Assembly: GCA_021820525.1 (NCBI GenBank)
Contig: JAKADM010000001.1
Coordinates: forward strand, 62,001 to 126,000
Direction of reading: 5' to 3'
Length of the DNA: 64,000 bases
Source: Thermoplasmata archaeon
GTDB lineage: Archaea; Thermoplasmatota; Thermoplasmata; Thermoplasmatales; Thermoplasmataceae
The position numbers were made by a program, and so were the translations under genes. Under the pieces are notes generated by a model. The model was given only the letters and a program-made list of their open reading frames with translations. It had not been told where the DNA came from and searched no databases. Of the stretch, positions 13,414 to 64,000 are shown piece after piece (position 1 is the first letter of the stretch; every line of letters starts with the position of its first letter).

Positions 13414-14713
13414 TTGGGTCATCTGACATTTGTGTGGGTTCATGGGTAAAGCTGTAAGTTACTGCATCTGAAATATATTGCAGTCTTCAGATGCTCCATG
13501 TTCCTGTATCCGAATGCCATCTTCTCTATCAGTGCGATCTTTGAGTTCATGCCCTCTGCTCTTGCATTTGTTATACGGTGAACGAAATAGTTCAGTATGC
13601 TGGCAAGATGGACTTTCATCATCCTTGCAACATCCTTCATTGCATCCACTGATCAATGAATGACCATGAATACCAGCTGTCCCAGTATTTACTTCCCTCC
13701 TCCGGAGTTGGCATATTCCAGAGATTCCTCACATTCTCCTTCATCGAATATGCCTTTCCAGTCAAGAGATCAGCCTTCCTGAGTTCATTATATGTCTCCC
13801 TGTATCTCTCAGGGAGATTCTCTGAGGAGTAGAGCCAGATGTATCTCGTTCCATTGAGATCCATTATGCCCTTCTCCTTGAGTTTCCTGTTCTCCTCTTT
13901 CATTGTTTTATCCACTGCCTCGTTCACATGCCTCATCACATGGAATCGGTTGAATAGGACCTTTGTTGAGGCATCCGGTACGTGTTCCATCGTAGACGAC
14001 ATGATGGGATCCCACATGTCCATTGAAACTGCCTTTATGTTAGCAAGCTCTTCTCTGGAGAGCGTTTCATAATACTCATCCAGTGATTTCTTCTTCCTTT
14101 CGTATGAGATGTAATCAACACCGTTGTTTGTCATATCATAAACAGGGGTGATGTATCTGTGCCCTTTTTTGTATGATTTCTCATCTATACCCAACACTGA
14201 GGACTCCCTTCTTTCTGTCCGTACCCTTCTCCAATGCTCTCTCAATGATGTGACATGCCTTCTGGCTGAGACATGCATAATTTCTGTGAAGTTGTATGTA
14301 TCCATATTCTGAAGCATTCTTATTGACCCTGTCTCGAATCTTAATGTAAACACTGATGTCTTCTCGGTCCACGGCATAACTCCCTCAAGGATTCCATGCT
14401 CAGAGCAGGATATCCTCGGAGGAGATGCATGTATAAATGTCATGAATTCAATGCTGTCAAGACCCCTCCACACTCTCTCGCTTAGGTGATCCTCGACCAT
14501 GCATTCCTTCCTGCATTTGGGGCAAAGAAGCCTTTATCCCTTTTCATGAATTATGTATATCTCCACCTTCTTCTTCACCGCGTCAAGGGAAATACTCTCT
14601 ACCTTCCATGGCAGTTTCAGTTCAAGCAGTGCTGAATAGATCTCACGGTCGTCCATGAAATATTATACAAAAATATTAGATAAAATTACCCACATGAAAG
14701 TGGGAAGAACCAA
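13414..14713 (-). mobile_element. Decayed ISL3-family insertion sequence
   Basis: An imperfect terminal inverted repeat of about 26 bp bounds the element: TTGGGTCATCTGACATTTG at the left and the reverse-complement form TTGGTTCTTCCCACTTTCA at the right, both followed by TGTGGGT (18 of the inner 24 positions match). Inside is a single minus-strand transposase frame of the ISL3 (IS204/IS1001/IS1165) type, interrupted by a nonsense codon and a frameshift. No clear 8-bp target duplication was found at the ends. Confidence 0.7.
13440..14656 (-). pseudogene. ISL3-type transposase, inactivated
   Basis: Translation begins at ATG 14656 (MDDREIYSALLELKLPWKV). A TAA interrupts it at about residue 41 (HEKG-stop-RLLCPKCRKEC, within the zinc-ribbon region). 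It then runs open for 287 residues with the DDE-type segment VLGIDEKSYKKGHRYITPVYD, AVSMDMWDP and the His-rich FNRFHVMRHVNEAVD. A frameshift near 13645 moves the C-terminus (DAMKDVARMMKVHLASIL..NARAEGMNSKIALIEKMAFGYRN) to another frame; that end is the diagnostic ISL3 C-terminus. The element cannot transpose by itself. Confidence 0.8.
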
Positions 14714-16872: not shown

Positions 16873-18486
16873 TTAGTTCAGGTATTGGGAAATTTCTTTA
16901 ATTGACTTGAGATTGTTGTCTTCAAAATTAAACCCGCAGATTTCAACCACAGGGAAATTTTTGTCATCTTTGTATGCAATTAACAATTCCTTAAGTGAAT
17001 TAAAATATCTAATTATGTCTATATTGCGTAATAGGAAAATTAGTTTCCCACTGCAGTACCTATACTTTTTTATCTTACTTGTTAACAATGCAATTGGATC
17101 GCCTCTTCCAAAAAACGTTTCAGCTTCATAGTATTCTTCAAGTGTTCCACTATGAACATAAACATCAGAACTTTTATGATTGCTATCTTCTAGCGTTATT
17201 TCATCTATCTTTACTTTCTTTTTAAAAACAAAAATAAATCCCTTCATTCCAGAGTGGATGCTCGTGGCATTCTTTTCCGATTCAGAATTTGTATTGACTA
17301 ATATATCTGTGTTTTTTACTAAGTACTTATACAAATTTTCTGGCACGTTTTCTTTTAAAAAGTCTAGTTTTGAATACTCACTTATTTTGTCATCAAAACC
17401 CACTATCGATTCTTTAAAATTTTGTTGGAAATTGGATAGAGTTAAACTTCCCAAAGATTCTGTTTGAAATCCAGATATAACGTTTAATAATTTATCTCCG
17501 TAATTTTGTATACCTTCGAATACATCATCTTCAATTATTTTTATGCCTAGATTGTATTTTCTGAATGCTTCTACGTTTCCTGTGCCAAGAATTAAACATC
17601 CCCTCAGTTGATATACTGCATTATCTATTAGTTTTTGAAGATGGTTTTCTGTTTTATCACTTATTGTACTACTTTTTACTATGATTAACTTATGTTCACC
17701 AGTCTGCTCTAATTTCTGCTCTAATTCTTCTATGTTTACTACTCTTTCAATTTCTGGGAATCCTCCATAATTAACTCTGAAAAAGTCTCTGTAATTTATC
17801 GCAACAATTTCTGAATATTCAGTTTTAACTGCTATTATAAAAAACTTGTCGGAAACATTGACAGGTAAACCTAAGGGGCCTTCTTTATTCCCCCATGGGG
17901 TTTTAAGTTCATCATTAGAACTACTATTGCTGGGACTTAAATTACTCATGCTGTGCATTTCCCTTTTTACTTCAGTATCAACATTGTTATTGAAGGAGAA
18001 ACCTTCGCATAATGATATATTTTTCATATTAATAGTGATCAAATTTGGGATACCTAGTTTGAAGATTTCATTTTTAAAATTTACAATAAGATCATTAAGC
18101 GTAAATTCTCTTTGTTCTATTTCCGTAGAGGACATTATATCAATGGATGGAATCCTAGTTGTGTTCATATATTTATAGTATAATATTTTATCGTTGAGAC
18201 TATAATTTTTAAAATTAACATTTATGCTATTCTGAATAGGTAAATCTGGTATTACTTCTCTTTTCCGCGAGACGATTTTAACCTGGTCCTTGTCAAAATT
18301 TACAAGTCTAATCTGGATTGGATTAATATGTAAAGTTTGTAGAACTGGGACATTAACAATTTCTCTATCAGTATTTATTTCACCTCTATTTTCATTAAAA
18401 ATTTTGTTAGTGTCAAAATTTTGATTAACATTAGGATCACTATTTTTTATATCCTTCCTCTTTTCTATAGTTTCTTCTTCCTTCAT
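16873..18486 (-). CDS. Unknown protein B of an A+T-rich two-gene module (537 aa; possible C-terminal nuclease-like domain)
   Basis: A 537-residue protein with no family I can name. The N-terminal 60 residues are polar and low-complexity (KNSDPNVNQNFDTNK). A serine/asparagine-rich linker lies near residue 185 (NLSPSNSSSNDELK). A middle alpha/beta region contains HKLIIVKSS and LRGCLILGTGN. The C-terminal 120 residues alternate strands and helices: GFIFVFKKK, SSDVYVH (Asp about 441), EEYYEAETFFGRGDP (Glu about 454 and 456), SKIKKY, KLIFLLRN. This resembles the layout of PD-(D/E)xK nucleases with a displaced lysine, but that is inference only. ATGA overlap with the preceding gene indicates coupled translation. 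A+T content is visibly higher than in the core genes. Confidence 0.72.
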   Translation of the reverse strand: MKEEETIEKRKDIKNSDPNVNQNFDTNKIFNENRGEINTDREIVNVPVLQTLHINPIQIRLVNFDKDQVKIVSRKREVIPDLPIQNSINVNFKNYSLNDKILYYKYMNTTRIPSIDIMSSTEIEQREFTLNDLIVNFKNEIFKLGIPNLITINMKNISLCEGFSFNNNVDTEVKREMHSMSNLSPSNSSSNDELKTPWGNKEGPLGLPVNVSDKFFIIAVKTEYSEIVAINYRDFFRVNYGGFPEIERVVNIEELEQKLEQTGEHKLIIVKSSTISDKTENHLQKLIDNAVYQLRGCLILGTGNVEAFRKYNLGIKIIEDDVFEGIQNYGDKLLNVISGFQTESLGSLTLSNFQQNFKESIVGFDDKISEYSKLDFLKENVPENLYKYLVKNTDILVNTNSESEKNATSIHSGMKGFIFVFKKKVKIDEITLEDSNHKSSDVYVHSGTLEEYYEAETFFGRGDPIALLTSKIKKYRYCSGKLIFLLRNIDIIRYFNSLKELLIAYKDDKNFPVVEICGFNFEDNNLKSIKEISQYLN

Positions 18487-19457
18487 GGCGTTATCACTCC
18501 GTATAAATGATTTATAATTTCAATAGAGTTATTATTATAGCTTCCTATAGAAATACATCCCGCAAATCCCAATGGTAAAATAGATTTTAGCACTTCAGAA
18601 AGTGAAAAATAAGGAAAATTGAAGTCATATTTACTTATAAATCCCTTTTCATCAACGTTTAACATTGTCGTTTTATTTCTTATAATTTTCATGGCATTAT
18701 CGTCTAACATTTCCTTTAAAGAATTATAATTATTTTTTAAGTATTTCTGCCATTCGTCCTCGATTCCATTAAATAGAAATTCGGAATTATGCTTGGTAAA
18801 GACGGATAAATTAAATATTTCGTTTTGTAATTTAATTATATAGCTTAATAATCCATTATTTTTTGGTAGAATAAATTCTATATATTCAATATTAAAATTA
18901 AGAATTGGTTTAATTTCACCATCTAGGAGCATAAGTAGACTATTTAGATTTTCTTTTAAATCTGGATAGGCTTCGATCGCATATCTCTCAGAGATAAATG
19001 TTATTGACTTCAAAAACATAGAGAATCTATTATAAGTAGGAAGAACTCTCAATGAATAATTATAAAAATCCCTGATTAAAGATACAACATTGTTTGAATG
19101 TTCAACTAGATCCAAGTACATGTTTTCATCATAATTTTCCGGAATGTAGTTAATATTTAACTTCTTGGACCTAACTTTATCTATAATTATATTACAAAAG
19201 TCACTTATTTTCTTAATATGATAAAACATGCTTTCTTTATTTTGATAGTCGATATCATGACCTTCCCCGTCAAATGAGATCATTATATTCCTTTGAGCTT
19301 GTAAGTTGCCATTAGAATTCAGATATCTTTGAATGTTTTCATTTGTTAAGCCAACTCCAAAATGTTGTTTATAAAATGAAGACAAACTATTTTCTATGAT
19401 GCCAGATTTGGTAATGCCTCCTAAAATTAGTTTTTTAAGGTTTTCACGGGTGTCCAC
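18483..19457 (-). CDS. Unknown protein A of an A+T-rich two-gene module (324 aa, 5' end uncertain)
   Basis: A mostly helical protein of at least 324 residues, rich in Asn, Ile and Lys, with no recognised motif; it ends FAGCISIGSYNNNSIEIINHLYGVITP-like. GTG 19457 is the only standard start, but no SD precedes it. The frame is open and protein-like for 47 further codons (IEFVSENIIHLTGIGNKL..YGDYLRKEFYGKNI) up to TGA 19601-19599, without ATG, GTG or TTG. Thus the gene has probably lost its true 5' end, and an IS3-type element lies 50 bp beyond. It overlaps protein B by 4 nt (ATGA). Function unknown. Confidence 0.68.
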   Translation of the reverse strand: MDTRENLKKLILGGITKSGIIENSLSSFYKQHFGVGLTNENIQRYLNSNGNLQAQRNIMISFDGEGHDIDYQNKESMFYHIKKISDFCNIIIDKVRSKKLNINYIPENYDENMYLDLVEHSNNVVSLIRDFYNYSLRVLPTYNRFSMFLKSITFISERYAIEAYPDLKENLNSLLMLLDGEIKPILNFNIEYIEFILPKNNGLLSYIIKLQNEIFNLSVFTKHNSEFLFNGIEDEWQKYLKNNYNSLKEMLDDNAMKIIRNKTTMLNVDEKGFISKYDFNFPYFSLSEVLKSILPLGFAGCISIGSYNNNSIEIINHLYGVITP

Positions 19458-20047: not shown

Positions 20048-20878
20048 TGTTCTGAAACAGGAGATGTCCTTGAGGAATATCTCAAGGATATGAGGAATCT
20101 CACTGTCCGGATATTATTACAAACCCAGGAAGAGGAATATTCAGAAACTTGATCCTTCCACAGGGGAAAGGATCAGGGAGATTGCATCAGAAAGGCCAAC
20201 ATACGGTAACAGGAGAGTATGGGCTGTTCTGAGGAATCAAGGTACAGGGGTGAAACCAGAAGACCGTCAGGAAGGTCCTGAAGGATAACAATCTGAACCT
20301 TCCTGCATCAAAACACAGAGGGAGAACAAAGTCAAGGAATCTCTTTAAACCGACTGGACCAGATCAGCTATGGGAAACTGATATCACTTACACTCCAACA
20401 GGGTCTGGAATGACGTATCTGATGTCCATCAAGGACTGTTTCACGAAAGAATGGCAGGGATACCATAGGATCAGTGGAGAATGCTGTTCTCATGGCATTC
20501 AGCGGATCTGTTCCCAAAGGCCTGGTACTGAGGACAGACAATGGCCCTCAGTACATATCACAATAGTTCAGGAGTGCCATGAAACTCCTGGGAATAAGAC
20601 TGGAATACATACAGAAACACACTCCAGAAGACAATGGAAACATTGAGTCATTCCACAACTCAATCAAGACAGATTACATATGGCCAAACGAATTCAGGGA
20701 TTTCCATGAAGCCTCCATAGAGATTGAGAATGCATTCACCGACTACAATGAATGCAGGCCACATTCATCCATTGACTACCTTCCTCCAAGAGAGTTCAGG
20801 AGGAAGTTCCTGGATGATACGGCATTCAGGGAAAGATTCGGTAAGAATGAAGTTGAGGTGACACTAAATGAGAACTGA
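20034..20878 (+). pseudogene. IS3-family OrfB (DDE integrase), frameshifted
   Basis: Begins MMVLDVLKQEMSLRNISR, then shifts frame. Recognisable fragments are LSGYYYKPRKRN, ASERPTYGNRRVWAVLRNQG, a DIT-like metal-binding segment in another frame near 20380, and an intact C-terminal 99 residues (MKLLGIRLEYIQKHTPEDNGNIESFHNSIKTD..HSSIDYLPPREF) that hold the catalytic Glu of the rve domain. At least three frameshifts or stops separate these parts. Confidence 0.8.
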
Positions 20879-22274: not shown

Positions 22275-23795
22275 TCAAGTGGTCTTCCCGCTCACATCGG
22301 ATAAATTAAAATCGCCAGTGTGTCTGGCAAGAGACATCTTCTTCCACACATCTAAGGCCCAGCTTGTGTTCAGGGCTTTCTGGGCTTCCTTAATCCTGAA
22401 TGTCCTCTGCCCATCCTGTAAGTGCTCAGCCAGAAGAAGCGTTCTTCTCTTCTGATCTGATTCTGATGCCCATGATGCCAGATGATAGAAATGAGTTGTC
22501 GCGAACGTCATTATGTCACCTTTCTCAAAGGACTGGATCACCTCCCGCATTATCATCGCTCCGTCGTATTGGTTGGTTGATGCCAGAGGCTCATTGAGAA
22601 TGATAATATCCTTTCTGTTGAGTGATGTTACAATATTCTGAATGTTAGAGAGTTCCCCTTCGTACCTGCCTCTCCCTATCTCCTGTTGCTCAGCCTTGGA
22701 GAAGTATGCATGAAGACAGTTAAACACCGTGCTCCTGAAGTATGTTGCAGGAACTGGAAGACCTGACTGGAAAAGAATAAGGGCCTGGCCTATGCTCCTG
22801 GCAAAAACGCTCTTTCCCCCGCTGTTCGGTCCACTGATCACGAAAGTGATCCTTCCAGCACTGTCCAGTGAATTTGAAATAGGTATTTTCCCACTTCTCA
22901 ACATCAATGAAGTTTCTACAAGGTCGTCGAATTTTAGAGAGGGGGACTCTTCTTTCCCTATTACTGGAAAGGTTAAGGGGGCTCCAAGTTCCCTGATTTT
23001 TTTAATAAGATTGACAGCACCCGCATAGAAAAGAAACTCATCTCTCATTCTGCAAACTTTCAAGTATATGGAGGATGCTAATTCGTGCACCATTCCAGCC
23101 ACCTCTCTGATTATAGTTTCCCTGAACGAACTGAACTCCTGTCCACATCCCTCACAACTACCTGGCAGGGTCCATTTACGGCTTTTTGTAAGTAACTTCA
23201 ACGGCCTTCCCTTTCCCTGATGATTCAGCAGTTTGACCTGGTTTATGGAAAGGTCCCATTCGGTGCCCATATATGCATAGAGCCTGTGGTCAAAGTCTGT
23301 CCTTTCAATTATCCCCTTTGTTTTCTTGACCCATTGGTCATTGTACTTCTCGTTAAAATCCTTAATATATTCTTGCATCTGTTTTGATATTTTTCTGCCC
23401 AATAAATAATCAAATAGGGGCCTGATCTTAGAAATATAGTCAATAAAGGATGAGATTATGAACCGGCCTTCATAAACCAGGATACCTGGCCTGTCTGAAT
23501 CTGTCCAGAACATTCTCTTTCTTATGCTTTTCTCAATCTCTGTTGTCAAGGATGCAAGGGAACGAAACTGATCCTCGTTTTCAGTCGCATCTTTCATCAC
23601 TGCCTGGCGAAGCTTTATTGTGTCCAGATCTGTCCTGCCATGCATCATCACCTTCCTGCATGTTTCCCGTATATCCCGATCGCCACCTGCCATGACATCC
23701 AATATGGGGTTGAAATCAAGATCTTCGAAAGTTTTCACAGCAACTTTATCCGGTTCTTCGAGGTTTCTTTCTGAATCGGCGTAAAGAATGTTCAT
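22275..23795 (-). CDS. MutS-like ATPase, second of a pair (506 aa)
   Basis: The C-terminal half is a MutS domain V: Walker A GPNSGGKS (322-329) following TFVI, the conserved AxxVFxxxxxx-like segment with a signature NIQNIVTSL, Walker B IIILNEP (397-402) and the MutS-typical His in FATTHFYHL. The mismatch-binding N-terminal domain I is absent; the N-terminal 250 residues are helical, like the core/clamp region. Such MutS-like proteins cannot do classical mismatch recognition and are linked to recombination or unknown DNA transactions. The start codon overlaps the stop of the neighbouring MutS-like gene (TAATG) behind a strong GAGGTGATG. The two products probably form a heterodimer. Confidence 0.85.
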   Translation of the reverse strand: MNILYADSERNLEEPDKVAVKTFEDLDFNPILDVMAGGDRDIRETCRKVMMHGRTDLDTIKLRQAVMKDATENEDQFRSLASLTTEIEKSIRKRMFWTDSDRPGILVYEGRFIISSFIDYISKIRPLFDYLLGRKISKQMQEYIKDFNEKYNDQWVKKTKGIIERTDFDHRLYAYMGTEWDLSINQVKLLNHQGKGRPLKLLTKSRKWTLPGSCEGCGQEFSSFRETIIREVAGMVHELASSIYLKVCRMRDEFLFYAGAVNLIKKIRELGAPLTFPVIGKEESPSLKFDDLVETSLMLRSGKIPISNSLDSAGRITFVISGPNSGGKSVFARSIGQALILFQSGLPVPATYFRSTVFNCLHAYFSKAEQQEIGRGRYEGELSNIQNIVTSLNRKDIIILNEPLASTNQYDGAMIMREVIQSFEKGDIMTFATTHFYHLASWASESDQKRRTLLLAEHLQDGQRTFRIKEAQKALNTSWALDVWKKMSLARHTGDFNLSDVSGKTT

Positions 23796-25309
23796 TAATC
23801 ATCACCTCTTCCATTATCCTCATAGATGATCCTGTAGTGCCTGGCCAGTTCAAGGGCATAATTTTTGACGGATAGCGGGCCAGCTGTGAAGACATGTGTC
23901 CTGGCAGTAGGATCATCCGCCGGGATGAGTGCCGAATATACTTTGATATCTGGAAGCTCCTCCAGACTGTTCAGGAATGTTACTGAGATACAGTAAGAAC
24001 CTTTACTTTTTATTATGGGGATTATCTCTTTGTATAGATTGAGAGCATCGTTTTCATTGGTTGAACCCATGAACTCATTCAGGACTATCAGTGTCTTTTC
24101 ATCAGCTTCCGTCAATATTTCGTTCATTCGACTGAGTTCCTCTTCAAGCCGGCCAATCATCTCCTCAACATCCTCAGCCACTGGAAAAATAGTTCTTATT
24201 TTTGTGAATAGTGGGAGTGAAGCCTGCTTTGCCGGAACAGGGACGCCCAGGGACGCCAGATATGCTATCTGTCCTATGGCTGTAGCAAGTGTCGTCTTGC
24301 CACTACTGTTTGGTCCAATTATGAAGGCAATATGCTCATGGGCTTCGAGATGAAGATCATTGGGAGTGATTGGTGCTGGGGATTTCCTTTCGAGCCATAG
24401 ACTATAGAACCCTTCCATAGAAAAAGAAGTTACTTCTGGATTTACCACTGGAAAGCAGAAATGTAGACCTCTGCTGCGAACAGAGTCCATCAAGATCAGA
24501 TAGGAAAGATAAAACTGGAATTCTACGGCAAATCGCGTTATTTCAATTGTCGGAAAACTTGTTGAATCATTGATGAAGTCTCTCAAGTCCCTGAACTCAT
24601 CTGGATAGAGACCTGAAACCAGTTCAAGAATAACGTTTCTCATATAATCCCCCAATTCATTATTCCTGAATTTTGGTTTACCATGTATTTCCCTGGGCGA
24701 ATCTTTATCGAATGCTTCCGCAATGAATTCCTTCAGCCCACCGGATTCTTCGCACTTGAATATCCGGATCGTACTTTCCTGTATAAGCATGCAGAACCTG
24801 ATGCGTGAAAGTATGGATTTAATGTGTGCTGTCCTGTCAACCAGCGCTCTAAATTCTTCTTCCTTTTTAAGCCATTGTAGATATTCGTAGAATCCTTCCA
24901 GAGCTTCTGATGAGTACTTTTCTTTTTTAAGGACATCAACGCACATTGAAATATCGTCAATGACATTTGAGAGAGATTTCAATATTTCGGCAGTCCTGAT
25001 GTATGGATAACTGTAACCCTTATCATTGCGAGTTTTTAAAAGACTTAGAACATCATATGAAAGTCTTGTCAGTGCATTTCTGATCTCAGAGTTAGAAAGA
25101 CTTCTGAATACATCGTGTCTATATTTTATATTATCAATGTCTCGAAGTGGGGAATAAAAAATTTTTCTAACGGATTCATCTGCCATATCCCCAAGAATGA
25201 GTGTAATAATATTATTAATCTGAAGATCATCCAGAAATCTTTCGCCTTCTTTATTTACTGCGAACTCAGAACTTTCATTCCTTAAGACTAAGCTGTAAAA
25301 CCCCCCCAT
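23795..25309 (-). CDS. MutS-like ATPase, first of a pair (504 aa)
   Basis: Same architecture and length as its downstream partner: helical N-terminal region, then a MutS-type ATPase with Walker A GPNSSGKT (332-339), TAIGQIAYLASLGVPVPA, the helix VEEMIGRLEEELSRMNEIL and Walker B LIVLNEF (408-412) plus GSTNENDA. Sequence identity to the partner outside these motifs is low, so it is an ancient paralogue. There is no mismatch-recognition domain. GAGAGGT lies 6 nt before ATG 25309. The coding sequence begins ATG with seven G in a row, a possible slippage site. It is first in a two-gene operon. Confidence 0.85.
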   Translation of the reverse strand: MGGFYSLVLRNESSEFAVNKEGERFLDDLQINNIITLILGDMADESVRKIFYSPLRDIDNIKYRHDVFRSLSNSEIRNALTRLSYDVLSLLKTRNDKGYSYPYIRTAEILKSLSNVIDDISMCVDVLKKEKYSSEALEGFYEYLQWLKKEEEFRALVDRTAHIKSILSRIRFCMLIQESTIRIFKCEESGGLKEFIAEAFDKDSPREIHGKPKFRNNELGDYMRNVILELVSGLYPDEFRDLRDFINDSTSFPTIEITRFAVEFQFYLSYLILMDSVRSRGLHFCFPVVNPEVTSFSMEGFYSLWLERKSPAPITPNDLHLEAHEHIAFIIGPNSSGKTTLATAIGQIAYLASLGVPVPAKQASLPLFTKIRTIFPVAEDVEEMIGRLEEELSRMNEILTEADEKTLIVLNEFMGSTNENDALNLYKEIIPIIKSKGSYCISVTFLNSLEELPDIKVYSALIPADDPTARTHVFTAGPLSVKNYALELARHYRIIYEDNGRGDD

Positions 25310-25843
25310 ACAACATACCTCTCATATAATTCAGGAGTCATCAGCTGTGAGGCGTTTATGGGGGACTCCATCCCTCTTGTTATAATAGTATCTTTCATGA
25401 TTAATTAAACCTTTTGTTGCTCCGGACTTTCTTGTGCGTAACAGTAGCATCCATAATTCCATTGGAATATATGTTAATGATATGATGGACTTAGTGTAAC
25501 AGTATGACCACATTTCTTGGTATAACGTGGCAGAGACTATAGCACGGGAATTGAAGTTATGGGAGAATCAGATAATGGATATCCGATGAAGGTGACGAAA
25601 CTTGAGGAGATACATGGATTCACATGGGATGAAGACACAATTTAATGTTCACTACGTGATTCACTGATGCAACATCTATAAGTAACCCTTAATTGTATAT
25701 TACGGGTAAGACCCGTTGAATAAGTGTACCCTGAGGCGCATACAAAATGGTATCAACCTGCACTGGATTTGATCCCACTCACTGTTTTTCCCTGGGATCA
25801 TGAATTATTTCAGCATCCCTGCCAGTGATGCCTAATTCGTTCT
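25310..25843. other. Gene-poor stretch with fragments
   Basis: A minus-strand frame at 25331-25513 (60 codons, ends RYYYNKRDGVPHKRLTADDS) and a plus-strand 28-codon frame at about 25560 (MGESDNGYPMKVTKLEEIHGF) look like debris of former genes. Neither can be assigned. No repeat or RNA was recognised. Confidence 0.4.
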
Positions 25844-36009: not shown

Positions 36010-37257
36010 TCAAGCGGTTTCTTTCTGCATTAAAATTATGAATTCCCTCGTCATTGTGTCTTCAAGTTTTCCAGCCTGGTTAGAGGGGCTGTTCTTGGAA
36101 GGCATTCTCTTATTGGGGATGTTTCTCGTAAAGGTTTCTAAATGTTTAAAGCCATTATGCTCAAAGAAGCAAACTATGGATTTTTCTGTTGGAAGAAGAA
36201 TGCCTGCAACCTTCCTATTTGCAACAACGTAGCATGCATATCCCTCATTCTTTATGACCTTTGAAACGTTGTTAATTGATCTCTTAAGATCAGCATAGAA
36301 TGAATAAACTTCTAGTGACCTTTTATGGTTTATCTCATCTACCTGTTTTATGCCATTGTCCAGTTCATCACATTCAAAGTTCATCGGTTCTATTTTCTTT
36401 CCGCCCATAGAAGCTTTATCAACATTGTAGCTTAATATTCCTAGCCATTCTGATGAGAGTTTTGAATACTGGCCATATGCCACTGTGGTATGTGAATCTC
36501 CATAAGGGGGAGATGTTATAACTAGGTCAACTGTATTTTCTCCTATCATGTCTTTAGGTATTTCATTTACAGTATTTGCAAAATAAACCTTAGATGTTGG
36601 CTTGTATGTCAGCTCCAACATCCTATTGTAAAATGTTTCATAACCTTTTAAATTCCTAGACAGTTTTTCCTTCATTATGCTGAATGGATCGGGATTGTGC
36701 TTTTTTAGATCTTCTTCACTATATCGGTATAATTTAAATTCGCCCTTCCTAGTGTTTGAGCTTTCCCTAATTGTTTCACTTGCGGCTACTTCGAAGAAGT
36801 TCTTGATCCTTGGGTCCTTAATTTTGCTTATGTATCTTATCATTAAGCCGATACTTTTTATTACATTAGGCTTAAACCAAAATTCCAAGTTCTCCTTGTC
36901 TATTATTTTCGGTGTTCCTTTTGGGTTCATTGTGAATTCAACAAATCTATGGATTTCATTGCTCAATTCGTTTGGATTTAGGGTGTATTCTGTCTTTGCT
37001 TCAGAAATCAATTTTGCTAAAGGATTTATATCAGTGCCAATAACATTTAGACCTGCTATTAGTCCTTCTACCAATGAAGTGCCTGAGCCACAATAGGGAT
37101 CAAATAATACTCCCCCCTCCTTCTCTCCCAGTAACTTGATTATATTTCTTGGTATTTGAGGTATCATTCTTGCTGGATAATCATGATAGATGTGGGTGAA
37201 TTCCCTTGTATTTTCTTTCAGAAATGTCCAGTCCATTTCTTTAGAGTTCTTTATCAT
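36010..37257 (-). CDS. Type II DNA methyltransferase (N4-cytosine or N6-adenine)
   Basis: A 415-residue amino-methyltransferase with the SAM-binding motif I FDPYCGSGTSLVEG (residues 52-65) ahead of the catalytic motif IV TSPPYGDSHT (248-256). A target-recognition region of about 180 residues lies between them. SPPY favours N4-cytosine methylation. The gene overlaps the endonuclease gene by 4 nt (ATGA) and protects host DNA against it. The pair is bounded by A+T-rich gene-free DNA on both sides, a sign of recent acquisition. No control protein is visible. Confidence 0.85.
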   Translation of the reverse strand: MIKNSKEMDWTFLKENTREFTHIYHDYPARMIPQIPRNIIKLLGEKEGGVLFDPYCGSGTSLVEGLIAGLNVIGTDINPLAKLISEAKTEYTLNPNELSNEIHRFVEFTMNPKGTPKIIDKENLEFWFKPNVIKSIGLMIRYISKIKDPRIKNFFEVAASETIRESSNTRKGEFKLYRYSEEDLKKHNPDPFSIMKEKLSRNLKGYETFYNRMLELTYKPTSKVYFANTVNEIPKDMIGENTVDLVITSPPYGDSHTTVAYGQYSKLSSEWLGILSYNVDKASMGGKKIEPMNFECDELDNGIKQVDEINHKRSLEVYSFYADLKRSINNVSKVIKNEGYACYVVANRKVAGILLPTEKSIVCFFEHNGFKHLETFTRNIPNKRMPSKNSPSNQAGKLEDTMTREFIILMQKETA

Positions 37258-37991
37258 AATTTATCCATCTTAGGTAATATCATATCTCTGTAGGCAAAGC
37301 AATCTTGAATATTTGCTTCAAGCACCCTGAATGCTGTCCCATGGTCATGTAACTTCCCTTCATTCTTCCCTCCCTTTGGATGCAATCCTAGTCTTAATTC
37401 AACTTTTACAATTCCCTTGTTAATAAGCGAAATAAACCTTTCGAATGAGAAACCCATTAAAACCCAAGCTTCTTTATAATTGAATTCTTCATTATCCTTG
37501 CTCCCTTTCCTATCAGCTTTCACAAGGAGCACCCTATACATTTTTCTCTCAAAAGATTCCTTTAATGATTTGTTATTCCATCCTCCATAGATATTTCCAT
37601 TCACGCTTTCAATATTAATTCTATCCGGTAATACTTTCAGTTTTAATGACGGGACTCCTTTAATTACAGTTATTTTGTTGCCATATAAATCAACATGAAG
37701 GACTTTCCTATTTGGATCATTTCTACTTGGATAACCATAGTCTTCCAATAACATCCTTATTGAATCACTTGGTTTGGGGCTCTTTGTAAAAAGTGTAATC
37801 ATAGACGATGATCTCATTCTTATGGATTTCAGTTCTACATTCTCACCATCCGGTCCTGGTATGTTGTTTTCTTCAATACCTAGTAAGTCTTCTAGTGTTT
37901 TGCCTATTCCAGTGTCGTGAGATCTGTTTGACTTAACCCACTGGTTGCTGATTTCATTCAGGCGATCAACTAGTTCATTAAAGCCCTTCAT
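37254..37991 (-). CDS. MvaI/BcnI-like type II restriction endonuclease
   Basis: The 245-residue product has the hallmarks of the MvaI/BcnI family: HDTGIGKTLEDLLGIEENN (His 25, TGIG 27-30) followed by a PD-(D/E)xK site GPDGENVELKS (Asp 48, Glu 53, Lys 55). Family members are monomeric enzymes that nick each strand in CCWGG or CCSGG-type sites; the specificity here is not known. It precedes and overlaps the methyltransferase gene. All three catalytic residues are present, so the enzyme could be active. Confidence 0.82.
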   Translation of the reverse strand: MKGFNELVDRLNEISNQWVKSNRSHDTGIGKTLEDLLGIEENNIPGPDGENVELKSIRMRSSSMITLFTKSPKPSDSIRMLLEDYGYPSRNDPNRKVLHVDLYGNKITVIKGVPSLKLKVLPDRINIESVNGNIYGGWNNKSLKESFERKMYRVLLVKADRKGSKDNEEFNYKEAWVLMGFSFERFISLINKGIVKVELRLGLHPKGGKNEGKLHDHGTAFRVLEANIQDCFAYRDMILPKMDKL

Positions 37992-61915: not shown

Positions 61916-64000
61916 AATATGTTGTTCCCGGAATATTGCTCCTTACAAAATATTGAAAATATACATTGTTGAGATTTTGATCAAGCATTTCGGACAGGTT
62001 GTATATTTGGGAAAAATTTACCTTTCCCTTACTCTGGAAGAGGAAAATGCTGTTGTTTATTTCCAGTGCCTGACCATTGTGGGAATCTGTAAATATTATG
62101 TATATACTGGATCTGTCCGGAAGTGATATTTCTATGCCGGAGATAGAACTTGTATTGTGATCGCTGATCTGGGAATAGGCTTCTTTTGATGAATTGGTTG
62201 AATAATTGAATACCAGATTATAGTGATTTTCGTTGAGATAGCTTAAATTTACATATGAATCAACAAGTGAAATGGAGTATACAAGTCTGGGGTTCTTAAT
62301 TATGGTTTGTGTGGCATTGATGTTCCTTATACTGAGATTGAAGCCATTAGATAGAACATTTATTCCATTTTTCCCTATGTATGAGAAATATTCTGCCTTT
62401 GGATTTTCCATATTAAGGTTCCAGGAAAAATAGGGACTGGCCTTATCAAATGTTGGGAAACTCATATTATAATTGGAAAAACCTCCCGTGGAGTTTGAGT
62501 AGTTTGTCGCAATCACATAAAAGTTGCTTTCGAATTCATAATACGCCTGGATTCTTATTTCGCTTGCGTTATATATTATATCAATTGAACTCATAGGAGT
62601 TATGTTTATTATATTTATTCCTGGTTTGATAACCCTGTTGGTTTTCCATATAAGGCCGTTATAATCTCCATTTGTTGGCGTATTTGGAATTATTCTGAAA
62701 AACACAGGAGAACTGTAGGGCATTCCCTCAGCTGGATTGTAGCTTATGTTAACTCTCATGCTCGTGATTACGTCTGGAATCTGTTGGGGTGAGTCCATAT
62801 GTGAAACGGAATTTATAACGAAAATATTGTTATCATTGTTTGTTGACTGTACATAAATGCTTGCCCCAATTGCTGCTGAAAATATAATCAGAATTAATAA
62901 GATGACCTTGATATTTTCCATAATCTTAAATGAGATTGTTTTTTCAATTTTAGCATCTGTATTTTTAATTTTTTTAACAATTTCCTTTGTTTCAGGAATC
63001 GTTAGTTTTGGATTATCAATAAAATTTGCATAGTCTGCATAGGAAAGTATTATGAGAATTCCCCAATCCACAACATAACCCATCAGCACCCTATAGTTAA
63101 ACATAAAAATCAAAATGGGAAAGGCAAAAAAGGTAAACTTAAGCTTTTCGTAGAATTTTACGTACACTATAAGCATTACGGCAATGGCTGCAAGGAACAT
63201 GATGGTGAAGACCTTTGAGGATATGTTCACAAAACCTGAAAAGGCCAGTTCAGAAAAACCAACTCCAATGCCAATAACGGGCTGGAATTCGGCCTCTATA
63301 ATATTCCTCAGCCACTGATGATATCCCATAATTATGAATGGCAAATTTGACAGAATAAATGAAAATACTGTATAAAGGAAGAAAATTGCCATCCTTTTGA
63401 ATGAATAGCCACCTTCCCTGAACATATAATACATCAAAAATGGGAGCATGATTATGGATATCTGCTTTGAAGAGAGCGAGAGGCCATAGAAAAATCCAGA
63501 CATTCCTGGTGATTCCTTGAAATAATATGCCATTACAAGGAAAAAAACCCACAGAACATCTGTAGACCCACCAACTGAAAAACCAAAAAATCCTATGTCC
63601 AGTGCGAGAAGGAGAGAAAGAAAGGGCAGGGCGTTCTGAACATTCTTTTTTCTAGCGTATAGAAAGGTTATGACATATAGAAGGGCAGATATGAAAAAGA
63701 GGACTGTATAGTCTGGGAGATTAAAATATGCTGCAGGTACGAATGCAAGAACGGACATTCCCGGATAAAGAAGATAATTTACAATTCTTCCATTCAATCC
63801 CGGTGTAACAAATATGGGATTTGGCGAAATATAATGGAAAACACCTGACATGTTTGAATTAATATAAGGGTCCTTTCCCTCAAGAAAAATTTTTGCTGCA
63901 TAATATTGAATTATGATTTCATCCGTATATGCATTAGGAAAAATTGATGAAACAACAAAAAAAACTTCAAACAGGGTTAGAATTAGACCAATATAGGATA
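61881..64000 (-). CDS. Polytopic GT-C-type membrane protein with extracellular C-terminal domain (5' end outside window)
   Basis: The frame is open to the right edge; the first in-window ATG (63851) is internal, because 49 further codons upstream encode TDEIIIQYYAAKIFLEGKDPY, a GT-C N-terminal loop. About ten membrane helices follow (for example LLYVITFLY, VLWVFFLVMAYYF, IAIFFLYTVFSFILSNLPFIIM), then a final helix (VILLILIIFSAAIGASIYV) and some 330 extracellular residues with many NxS/T sites. It resembles the DUF2029/GT87 group of polyprenol-phosphate-dependent glycosyltransferases. The 3' end overlaps the convergent surface-protein gene by 35 nt. Confidence 0.75.
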   Translation of the reverse strand, partial: SYIGLILTLFEVFFVVSSIFPNAYTDEIIIQYYAAKIFLEGKDPYINSNMSGVFHYISPNPIFVTPGLNGRIVNYLLYPGMSVLAFVPAAYFNLPDYTVLFFISALLYVITFLYARKKNVQNALPFLSLLLALDIGFFGFSVGGSTDVLWVFFLVMAYYFKESPGMSGFFYGLSLSSKQISIIMLPFLMYYMFREGGYSFKRMAIFFLYTVFSFILSNLPFIIMGYHQWLRNIIEAEFQPVIGIGVGFSELAFSGFVNISSKVFTIMFLAAIAVMLIVYVKFYEKLKFTFFAFPILIFMFNYRVLMGYVVDWGILIILSYADYANFIDNPKLTIPETKEIVKKIKNTDAKIEKTISFKIMENIKVILLILIIFSAAIGASIYVQSTNNDNNIFVINSVSHMDSPQQIPDVITSMRVNISYNPAEGMPYSSPVFFRIIPNTPTNGDYNGLIWKTNRVIKPGINIINITPMSSIDIIYNASEIRIQAYYEFESNFYVIATNYSNSTGGFSNYNMSFPTFDKASPYFSWNLNMENPKAEYFSYIGKNGINVLSNGFNLSIRNINATQTIIKNPRLVYSISLVDSYVNLSYLNENHYNLVFNYSTNSSKEAYSQISDHNTSSISGIEISLPDRSSIYIIFTDSHNGQALEINNSIFLFQSKGKVNFSQIYNLSEMLDQNLNNVYFQYFVRSNIPGTTYFSAWNFYLTLN

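Follow-up and report, generated by a model that had tools for sequence, protein, structure and literature searches.

When fluoride poisons a cell, what might a MutS-fold ATPase release or protect? This question is raised by two adjacent genes, A and B, in a 64-kb stretch of DNA from a Thermoplasmata archaeon (the window; positions 62,001 to 126,000 of the forward strand of contig JAKADM010000001.1, GenBank assembly GCA_021820525.1), where both genes lie behind a fluoride riboswitch. In 2010, Weinberg et al. (PMC2864571) named 'mutS' among the gene classes that follow the crcB-motif RNA and interpreted the association in terms of DNA repair; the window pair is such a case. The label 'DNA repair proteins' was repeated for these genes in 2020 (PMC7266159). 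Reviews of how cells resist fluoride account for exporters, antiporters, enolase, and pyrophosphatase, and one from 2024, in the part of its text that was available, lists the latter two among riboswitch-controlled genes and nowhere contains 'DNA repair' or 'mismatch' (PMC11139923); the regulon's 'mutS' genes have remained a name, read as DNA repair. Thus, it has been known since 2010 that fluoride riboswitches precede 'mutS' genes. We found no description in the literature searched of the obligate pairing, the separate subfamily and ancestry, or the Asn-Glu (NE) signature reported here, and literature on MutS with reactivase, fluoride, or KamC yielded nothing on these genes.

Together, the fluoride riboswitch, the fluoride genes that flank the pair at other loci, and the absence of MutL from its carriers among the relatives argue for a MutS-fold ATPase of two subunits that serves the fluoride response instead of mismatch repair. 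Judged from sequence, the pair is almost certainly a fluoride-response heterodimer.

Fluoride riboswitches and fluoride genes around the pair

An Rfam scan found a single fluoride riboswitch above the gathering score in the window. The match to RF01734 is full length (E 4.8e-9, local search), ends 15 nt from the start codon of gene A, and has an intact pseudoknot, GGAGU/ACUCC. Directly after the aptamer and 7 nt ahead of the gene A ATG lies GAGAGGT, a plausible Shine-Dalgarno sequence.

Riboswitches were counted in the window and in 80 further loci with the pair (L077-L156). In seven of these 81 loci, gene A lies too near a contig end, leaving 74 that are testable. Our own covariance model, R1, was built from 12 Rfam hits and used to search 96 sources; as it was partly built from elements upstream of A, Rfam results serve as the independent check. 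Within 400 nt upstream of A and on the same strand, R1 gave clear matches (E<=1e-3) in 42 of the 74 loci and weak ones (E<=1) in 9 more, located 9 to 307 nt from the gene. The remaining 23 loci have no riboswitch just before A; in three of them (L127, L129, and L138), a riboswitch heads a gene run that ends in the pair. With Rfam alone, matches at the gathering score lie directly before A in five of eight selected loci of named isolates and in 5 of 18 others (L079, L089, L091, L106, and L141). At E<=0.01, Rfam placed a match directly before the pair in 13 of the 15 relatives that carry both genes, the exceptions being G002 and G028.

The upstream elements also covary in the pseudoknot (GGAGU/ACUCC, GAAGC/GCUUC, GAGGC/GCCUC). 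Of the 50 distinct elements before A, 35 showed the full five pseudoknot pairs with a crude parser; two elements were unparsed and 13 had fewer pairs, some of these probably through parser errors. With shuffled partners, the corresponding mean was 21.4 and the maximum 28 in 1000 shuffles.

In bacteria, fluoride genes surround the pair. Genes in the available flanks of the 80 loci include enolase (11 loci), a dynamin-like GTPase (9), a hydrogenase-4-F-like gene (7), and a CPA antiporter (6). Among the 148 open reading frames (ORFs) in co-directional runs around the pairs, the families recorded included MFS_1 (10), Na_H_Exchanger, Usp, Dynamin_N, and DUF6062 (5 each), PAP2 (4), and Enolase, DUF190, and CRCB (3 each).

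Pairing, fold, and ancestry of genes A and B

Genes A and B share one base, at TAATG, with A first. Both proteins match the Pfam domain MutS_V above its cut-off of 30.2 bits; neither matches MutS_I or MutS_II, and a match to MutS_III, in A only, is below threshold. The AlphaFold2 (AF2) models (predicted TM-score, pTM, 0.86 each) have the architecture of MutS domains III-V, with a short beta hairpin at the position of the clamp in both. In VIA-align searches, the top matches of both models were MSH2, MutS, and MutS2 chains, the best having Z 30.5 (rmsd 5.8, 441 residues aligned) for A and Z 28.9 (rmsd 9.1, 439 aligned) for B. Alignments of the A model with MutS or MSH2 start at about residue 260-300 of those chains, and alignments of both A and B with MutS2 start at residue 1 of that protein. 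A and B are also homologs, with 26% identity over 432 columns (E 8e-28) and a profile-profile E of 9.8e-57. A sequence-only reading of the locus had described two genes of similar length joined at TAATG, each with a MutS-type ATPase and helical core, without domain I, and with differing Walker regions (GPNSSGKT in A, GPNSGGKS in B). All of this agrees with our analysis; that account had the gene pair right and overlooked the riboswitch.

With the B alignment as query, a search of 84,980 species genomes yielded 291 stretches with a relative, of which the best 80 were kept, a choice that favors loci where both genes match and includes near-copies in the counts. In all 80 loci, which span Thermoplasmata, Marsarchaeota, Clostridia, Chloroflexota, Bacteroidota, Actinomycetota, Deinococcota, Proteobacteria, Spirochaetes, Desulfurellales, and others, A is directly upstream of B. 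A sample of 389 genomes, free of that bias and confined to the window's phylum, contains full-length B in 17, and A adjoins B in 17 of 17. This pairing rules out a homodimer or chance neighbors. Among 61 relatives, including the window's own genome (G000), 15 carry both genes, one (G006) has a B cut by the contig end, and 14 others have one long canonical MutS. A viral origin was rejected, as a scan of viral contigs with window B gave no relative.

We built a tree of the ATPase domain from 35 A and 35 B sequences (the window's included, the rest drawn at random), 16 MutS1, 14 MutS2, and 3 KamC sequences. Although its bootstrap is not fully settled, support was 100/83 for A, 100/98 for B, and 100/99 for A plus B against MutS1, MutS2, and KamC; MutS2 formed a clade of its own (100/98), with which KamC grouped. 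The pair therefore descends from one ancient duplication within its own branch. Since the genes are always paired and share this duplication, A and B very probably form an obligate heterodimer. No NCBIfam model fits them: the cut-offs lie between 300 and 642 bits, and the best score was 86. The sequence-only reading had thus been sound in proposing a dedicated MutS-like ATPase of two subunits, lacking mismatch recognition and located in an accessory region: homologs are paired instead of single, no characterized MutS subfamily claims them, and the locus is patchily distributed among the relatives. Its suggested roles in recombination control, mobile-element restriction, or DNA junction handling were not supported, the control element being a fluoride riboswitch and the neighbors in other genomes being fluoride-response genes. 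It had also likened the pair, by description alone, to MSH4-MSH5, the eukaryotic meiotic heterodimer that has no mismatch domain. If these genes as a class encode an ancient, obligate heterodimer that forms a subfamily apart, as seen here, annotation as mismatch repair misleads across many bacterial phyla and archaea.

The ATPase motifs set the family apart. In an alignment of the window's A with 74 of the 80 other A genes (L099, L105, L107, L132, L148, and L156 were omitted as incomplete or frame-split), the Walker B motif is NE in 75 of 75, and it is NE in 80 of 81 B sequences, the remaining one having SE (155 of 156 overall). In MutS1, MutS2, and KamC, 32 of 33 rows have DE (L170 was unparsed). 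At the H-loop position, A has VTF, without the H-loop His, and B has VTH; the two ATP sites are therefore predicted to be unequal. The Walker B Asp-to-Asn change in E. coli MutS D693N reportedly weakens Mg2+ binding, and a structure of this mutant (PDB 3k0s) appears by its title among our fold matches. So does 1nne, whose title describes MutS crystallized with ADP-BeF3; such active sites therefore bind metal-fluoride mimics.

Table 1. Features of the locus, in window coordinates
Feature	Position	Strand	Evidence or comparison
Fluoride riboswitch aptamer (crcB motif, RF01734)	25325..25384	-	Rfam cmscan 37.3 bits, gathering score 34, model 1-64
Putative ribosome-binding site GAGAGGT	25317..25323	-	Read from the sequence; function inferred
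Gene A, MutS-fold ATPase subunit A, 504 aa	23795..25309	-	MutS_V 50.2 bits; ortholog alignments A1, A4; AF2 model pLDDT 87.9
Gene B, MutS-fold ATPase subunit B, 506 aa	22275..23795	-	MutS_V 67.1 bits; alignments A2, A5; AF2 model pLDDT 85.9
Gene A P-loop GPNSSGKTT	24290..24316	-	Family consensus GPN[QN]GGKTT
Gene B P-loop GPNSGGKS	22809..22832	-	Family consensus GAN-GGK[ST]
Gene A Walker B Asn-Glu (N411 E412)	24074..24079	-	DE in MutS1/MutS2/KamC
Gene B Walker B Asn-Glu (N401 E402)	22590..22595	-	Ortholog alignment
Gene A beta hairpin 172-185, at MutS clamp (domain IV) position	24755..24796	-	DSSP of AF2 model; domain IV correspondence inferred
Gene B Cys-Glu-Gly-Cys (C214-C217)	23145..23156	-	Occupies the place of the conserved family motif RDExG

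Possible targets of the pair

The pair resembles MutS1 and MSH proteins in its domain III-V fold, P-loop, and dimer architecture. It differs from them in lacking domains I and II, hence the mismatch-recognition domain (the A model begins at domain III), in having NE rather than DE at Walker B, and in always consisting of two different genes. Scores were far from the NCBIfam equivalog cut-offs for MutS1 (641.7 for TIGR01070 and 480 for NF003810), reaching at most 60.0 bits for the window proteins and at most 85.8 for eight others. MutL is above cut-off in 15 of the 61 relatives, none of which has the pair. Conversely, neither MutL nor canonical MutS was found in the pair-bearing Thermoplasmatales relatives; G000 itself is 86% complete, and the complete single-contig genomes G020, G022, G034, and G036 agree in having the pair without either. 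As domain I is missing and MutL is absent from its carriers among the relatives, we reject mismatch repair with high confidence.

The model that we prefer is as follows. Fluoride and Mg2+ would stabilize the aptamer, allowing genes A and B to be expressed. The two proteins would dimerize, with two unequal ATP sites, and the dimer would close like a MutS clamp on a target other than a mismatch, which ATP would then prise loose. The most likely target would be an enzyme or assembly trapped in a dead-end Mg-fluoride-phosphate complex; fluoride classically targets enolase, pyrophosphatase, and P-loop NTPases. We favor such a target because the regulon contains the fluoride-inhibited enolase and because MutS2 and KamC are tied to non-DNA targets. 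The action would be reactivase-like, by analogy with KamC, which is named so, and with MutS2, which acts on stalled ribosomes. By replacing the Mg-binding Asp, Asn may spare the pair's own ATPase from being trapped as ADP-Mg-fluoride.

Taken whole, this explanation, a fluoride-induced obligate heterodimeric MutS-fold ABC-type ATPase acting on a non-mismatch target, seems to us evenly poised between right and wrong. That the pair remodels fluoride-locked targets is a tentative proposal, drawn by analogy and short of probable. We consider it rather unlikely that the pair represents the first of a class of machines for repairing fluoride damage, which would clamp and reactivate proteins locked by Mg-fluoride-phosphate, their own sites made fluoride-proof by the change from Asp to Asn. 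If true, rescue of fluoride-locked proteins would be a defense beside export and overproduction of targets.

Several points weigh against this explanation. By R1, a fluoride riboswitch near the pair is missing from 20 of the 74 testable loci. These 20 include all four Desulfurellales loci (L078, L088, L098, and L131); immediately upstream in all four is one conserved gene on the opposite strand. Neighborhoods vary, enolase being near the pair in just the 11 loci given above. The window's genes sit on long branches (1.65 and 1.81) and deviate from positions that are at least 90% conserved in the family at 23 of 72 in A and 36 of 85 in B, and the activity of this particular pair may therefore have changed. 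The target itself is putative, and the reading of NE as fluoride tolerance is a conjecture that may or may not hold. Finally, DNA clamps have this same fold, and DNA could therefore be the target.

A DNA role without MutL is the main rival. In it, the pair would be a fluoride-induced DNA-maintenance clamp that binds branched or damaged DNA built up under acid and fluoride stress. The MutS/MSH2 fold (Z 30.5 and 28.9), the short hairpin that each model shows where the clamp would be, and, less decisively, the clamp-tip region of B, with a median net charge of +5, all suit a clamp of this kind, whereas the missing domains I and II and the lack of MutL in carriers among the relatives do not. The 2010 report took the mutS link as DNA repair (PMC2864571). 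No DNA-repair family is among the 25 commonest families of operon-run neighbors, beyond which lie 88 further families. Toward its N terminus, A is acidic (a median of -2.5 per 100 aa, compared to -0.7 to +1.8 in MutS1 rows), weak evidence that also speaks against DNA. Overall, we regard this rival as unlikely, with a modest chance of being correct.

Another proposal is that the copy in the window is decaying or has been repurposed, its fluoride function being lost. Besides the long branches, many conserved residues are replaced, including two motifs of window B, RDExG (now CEGC) and THFKREED. However, both frames, both P-loops, the NE motifs, and the riboswitch are retained. Moreover, a second species, G006, has a partial B that shares 57% identity with window B and keeps CEGC; this points to a sub-lineage that has been maintained rather than to a single gene in decay. 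We regard decay or repurposing as quite unlikely. The CEGC of gene B is possibly a metal or redox site.

Very doubtful is a fluoride-specific ribosome rescue, in which translational GTPases locked by GDP-metal-fluoride would stall ribosomes that the pair would split, as MutS2 does collided ones. MutS2, like the pair, begins at domain III and has no mismatch domain, and MutS2-disome chains are among the fold matches of our models. According to PMC10897456, MutS2 splits stalled ribosomes by means of its ABC ATPase, and recruitment depends on its KOW and SMR domains. A and B have neither domain, both proteins ending after domain V; they are two genes rather than one, and the tree sets them apart from MutS2.

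A B12-enzyme reactivase for a cobalamin-dependent mutase, like the ~500-aa MutS-fold ATPase KamC (NCBIfam NF052383, lysine 5,6-aminomutase reactivase), is extremely improbable and largely refuted: although both window proteins have KamC as their best NCBIfam match and the genome encodes B12-binding proteins, the KamC scores (67.2 and 78.6 bits) are far under the cut-off of 300, KamC has a DE Walker B and groups with MutS2, 3 of 16 genomes encode true KamC alongside the pair, and lysine 5,6-aminomutase was found in none of the 61 relatives by a search that was positive in 3 of 3 KamC genomes, in two of which KamC adjoins the aminomutase gene. Anti-phage defense was also rejected, as PADLOC gave weak matches only, the best being AriA (E 4.4e-5) at residues 327-409 of A, the P-loop region.

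The wider fluoride regulon and neighboring genes

The Thermoplasmatales relatives are acidophiles. As HF enters cells freely at low pH, and as no CrcB/Fluc exporter was found above cut-off in the 61 relatives (positive controls were detected), the question of what the pair does is pressing for these organisms. G000 carries one CLC protein, whose fluoride selectivity is putative.

Genome G000 has a second fluoride riboswitch outside the window (C7:159590-159651; L177 2091-2152). It precedes an operon whose genes 1, 3, and 4 match NADHdh, Proton_antipo_M, and Complex1_49kDa. The best NCBIfam match of the Proton_antipo_M gene is hydrogenase 4 subunit F, at 411 bits just below the cut-off of 437. 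Inspection of translations revealed that a hydrogenase-4/complex I-like gene run follows a riboswitch in nine further relatives as well. Formate hydrogen lyase is another gene class listed after the crcB-motif RNA (PMC2864571).

In several bacteria, a dynamin-like GTPase lies directly downstream of the pair (L109 10258-12027, L121 9422-11197, L127 10250-12163, and L117 9841-12480) and is a possible functional partner. A GGGtGRT-family protein (PF14057) is encoded between fluoride riboswitches upstream of the pair in L106 (4315-5316) and L144 (5306-6307).

Elsewhere in the window, two overlapping genes of 537 and 324 aa (16873..19457, reverse strand) lack any Pfam match, and a restriction-modification pair (36010..37991, reverse strand) consists of an N6_N4 methylase adjoining an MvaI/BcnI-family endonuclease. 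Near genes A and B are an ISL3-type transposase (13637..14500, reverse strand) and an integrase-core (rve_3) remnant (20579..20878, forward strand); thus, the region looks mobile.

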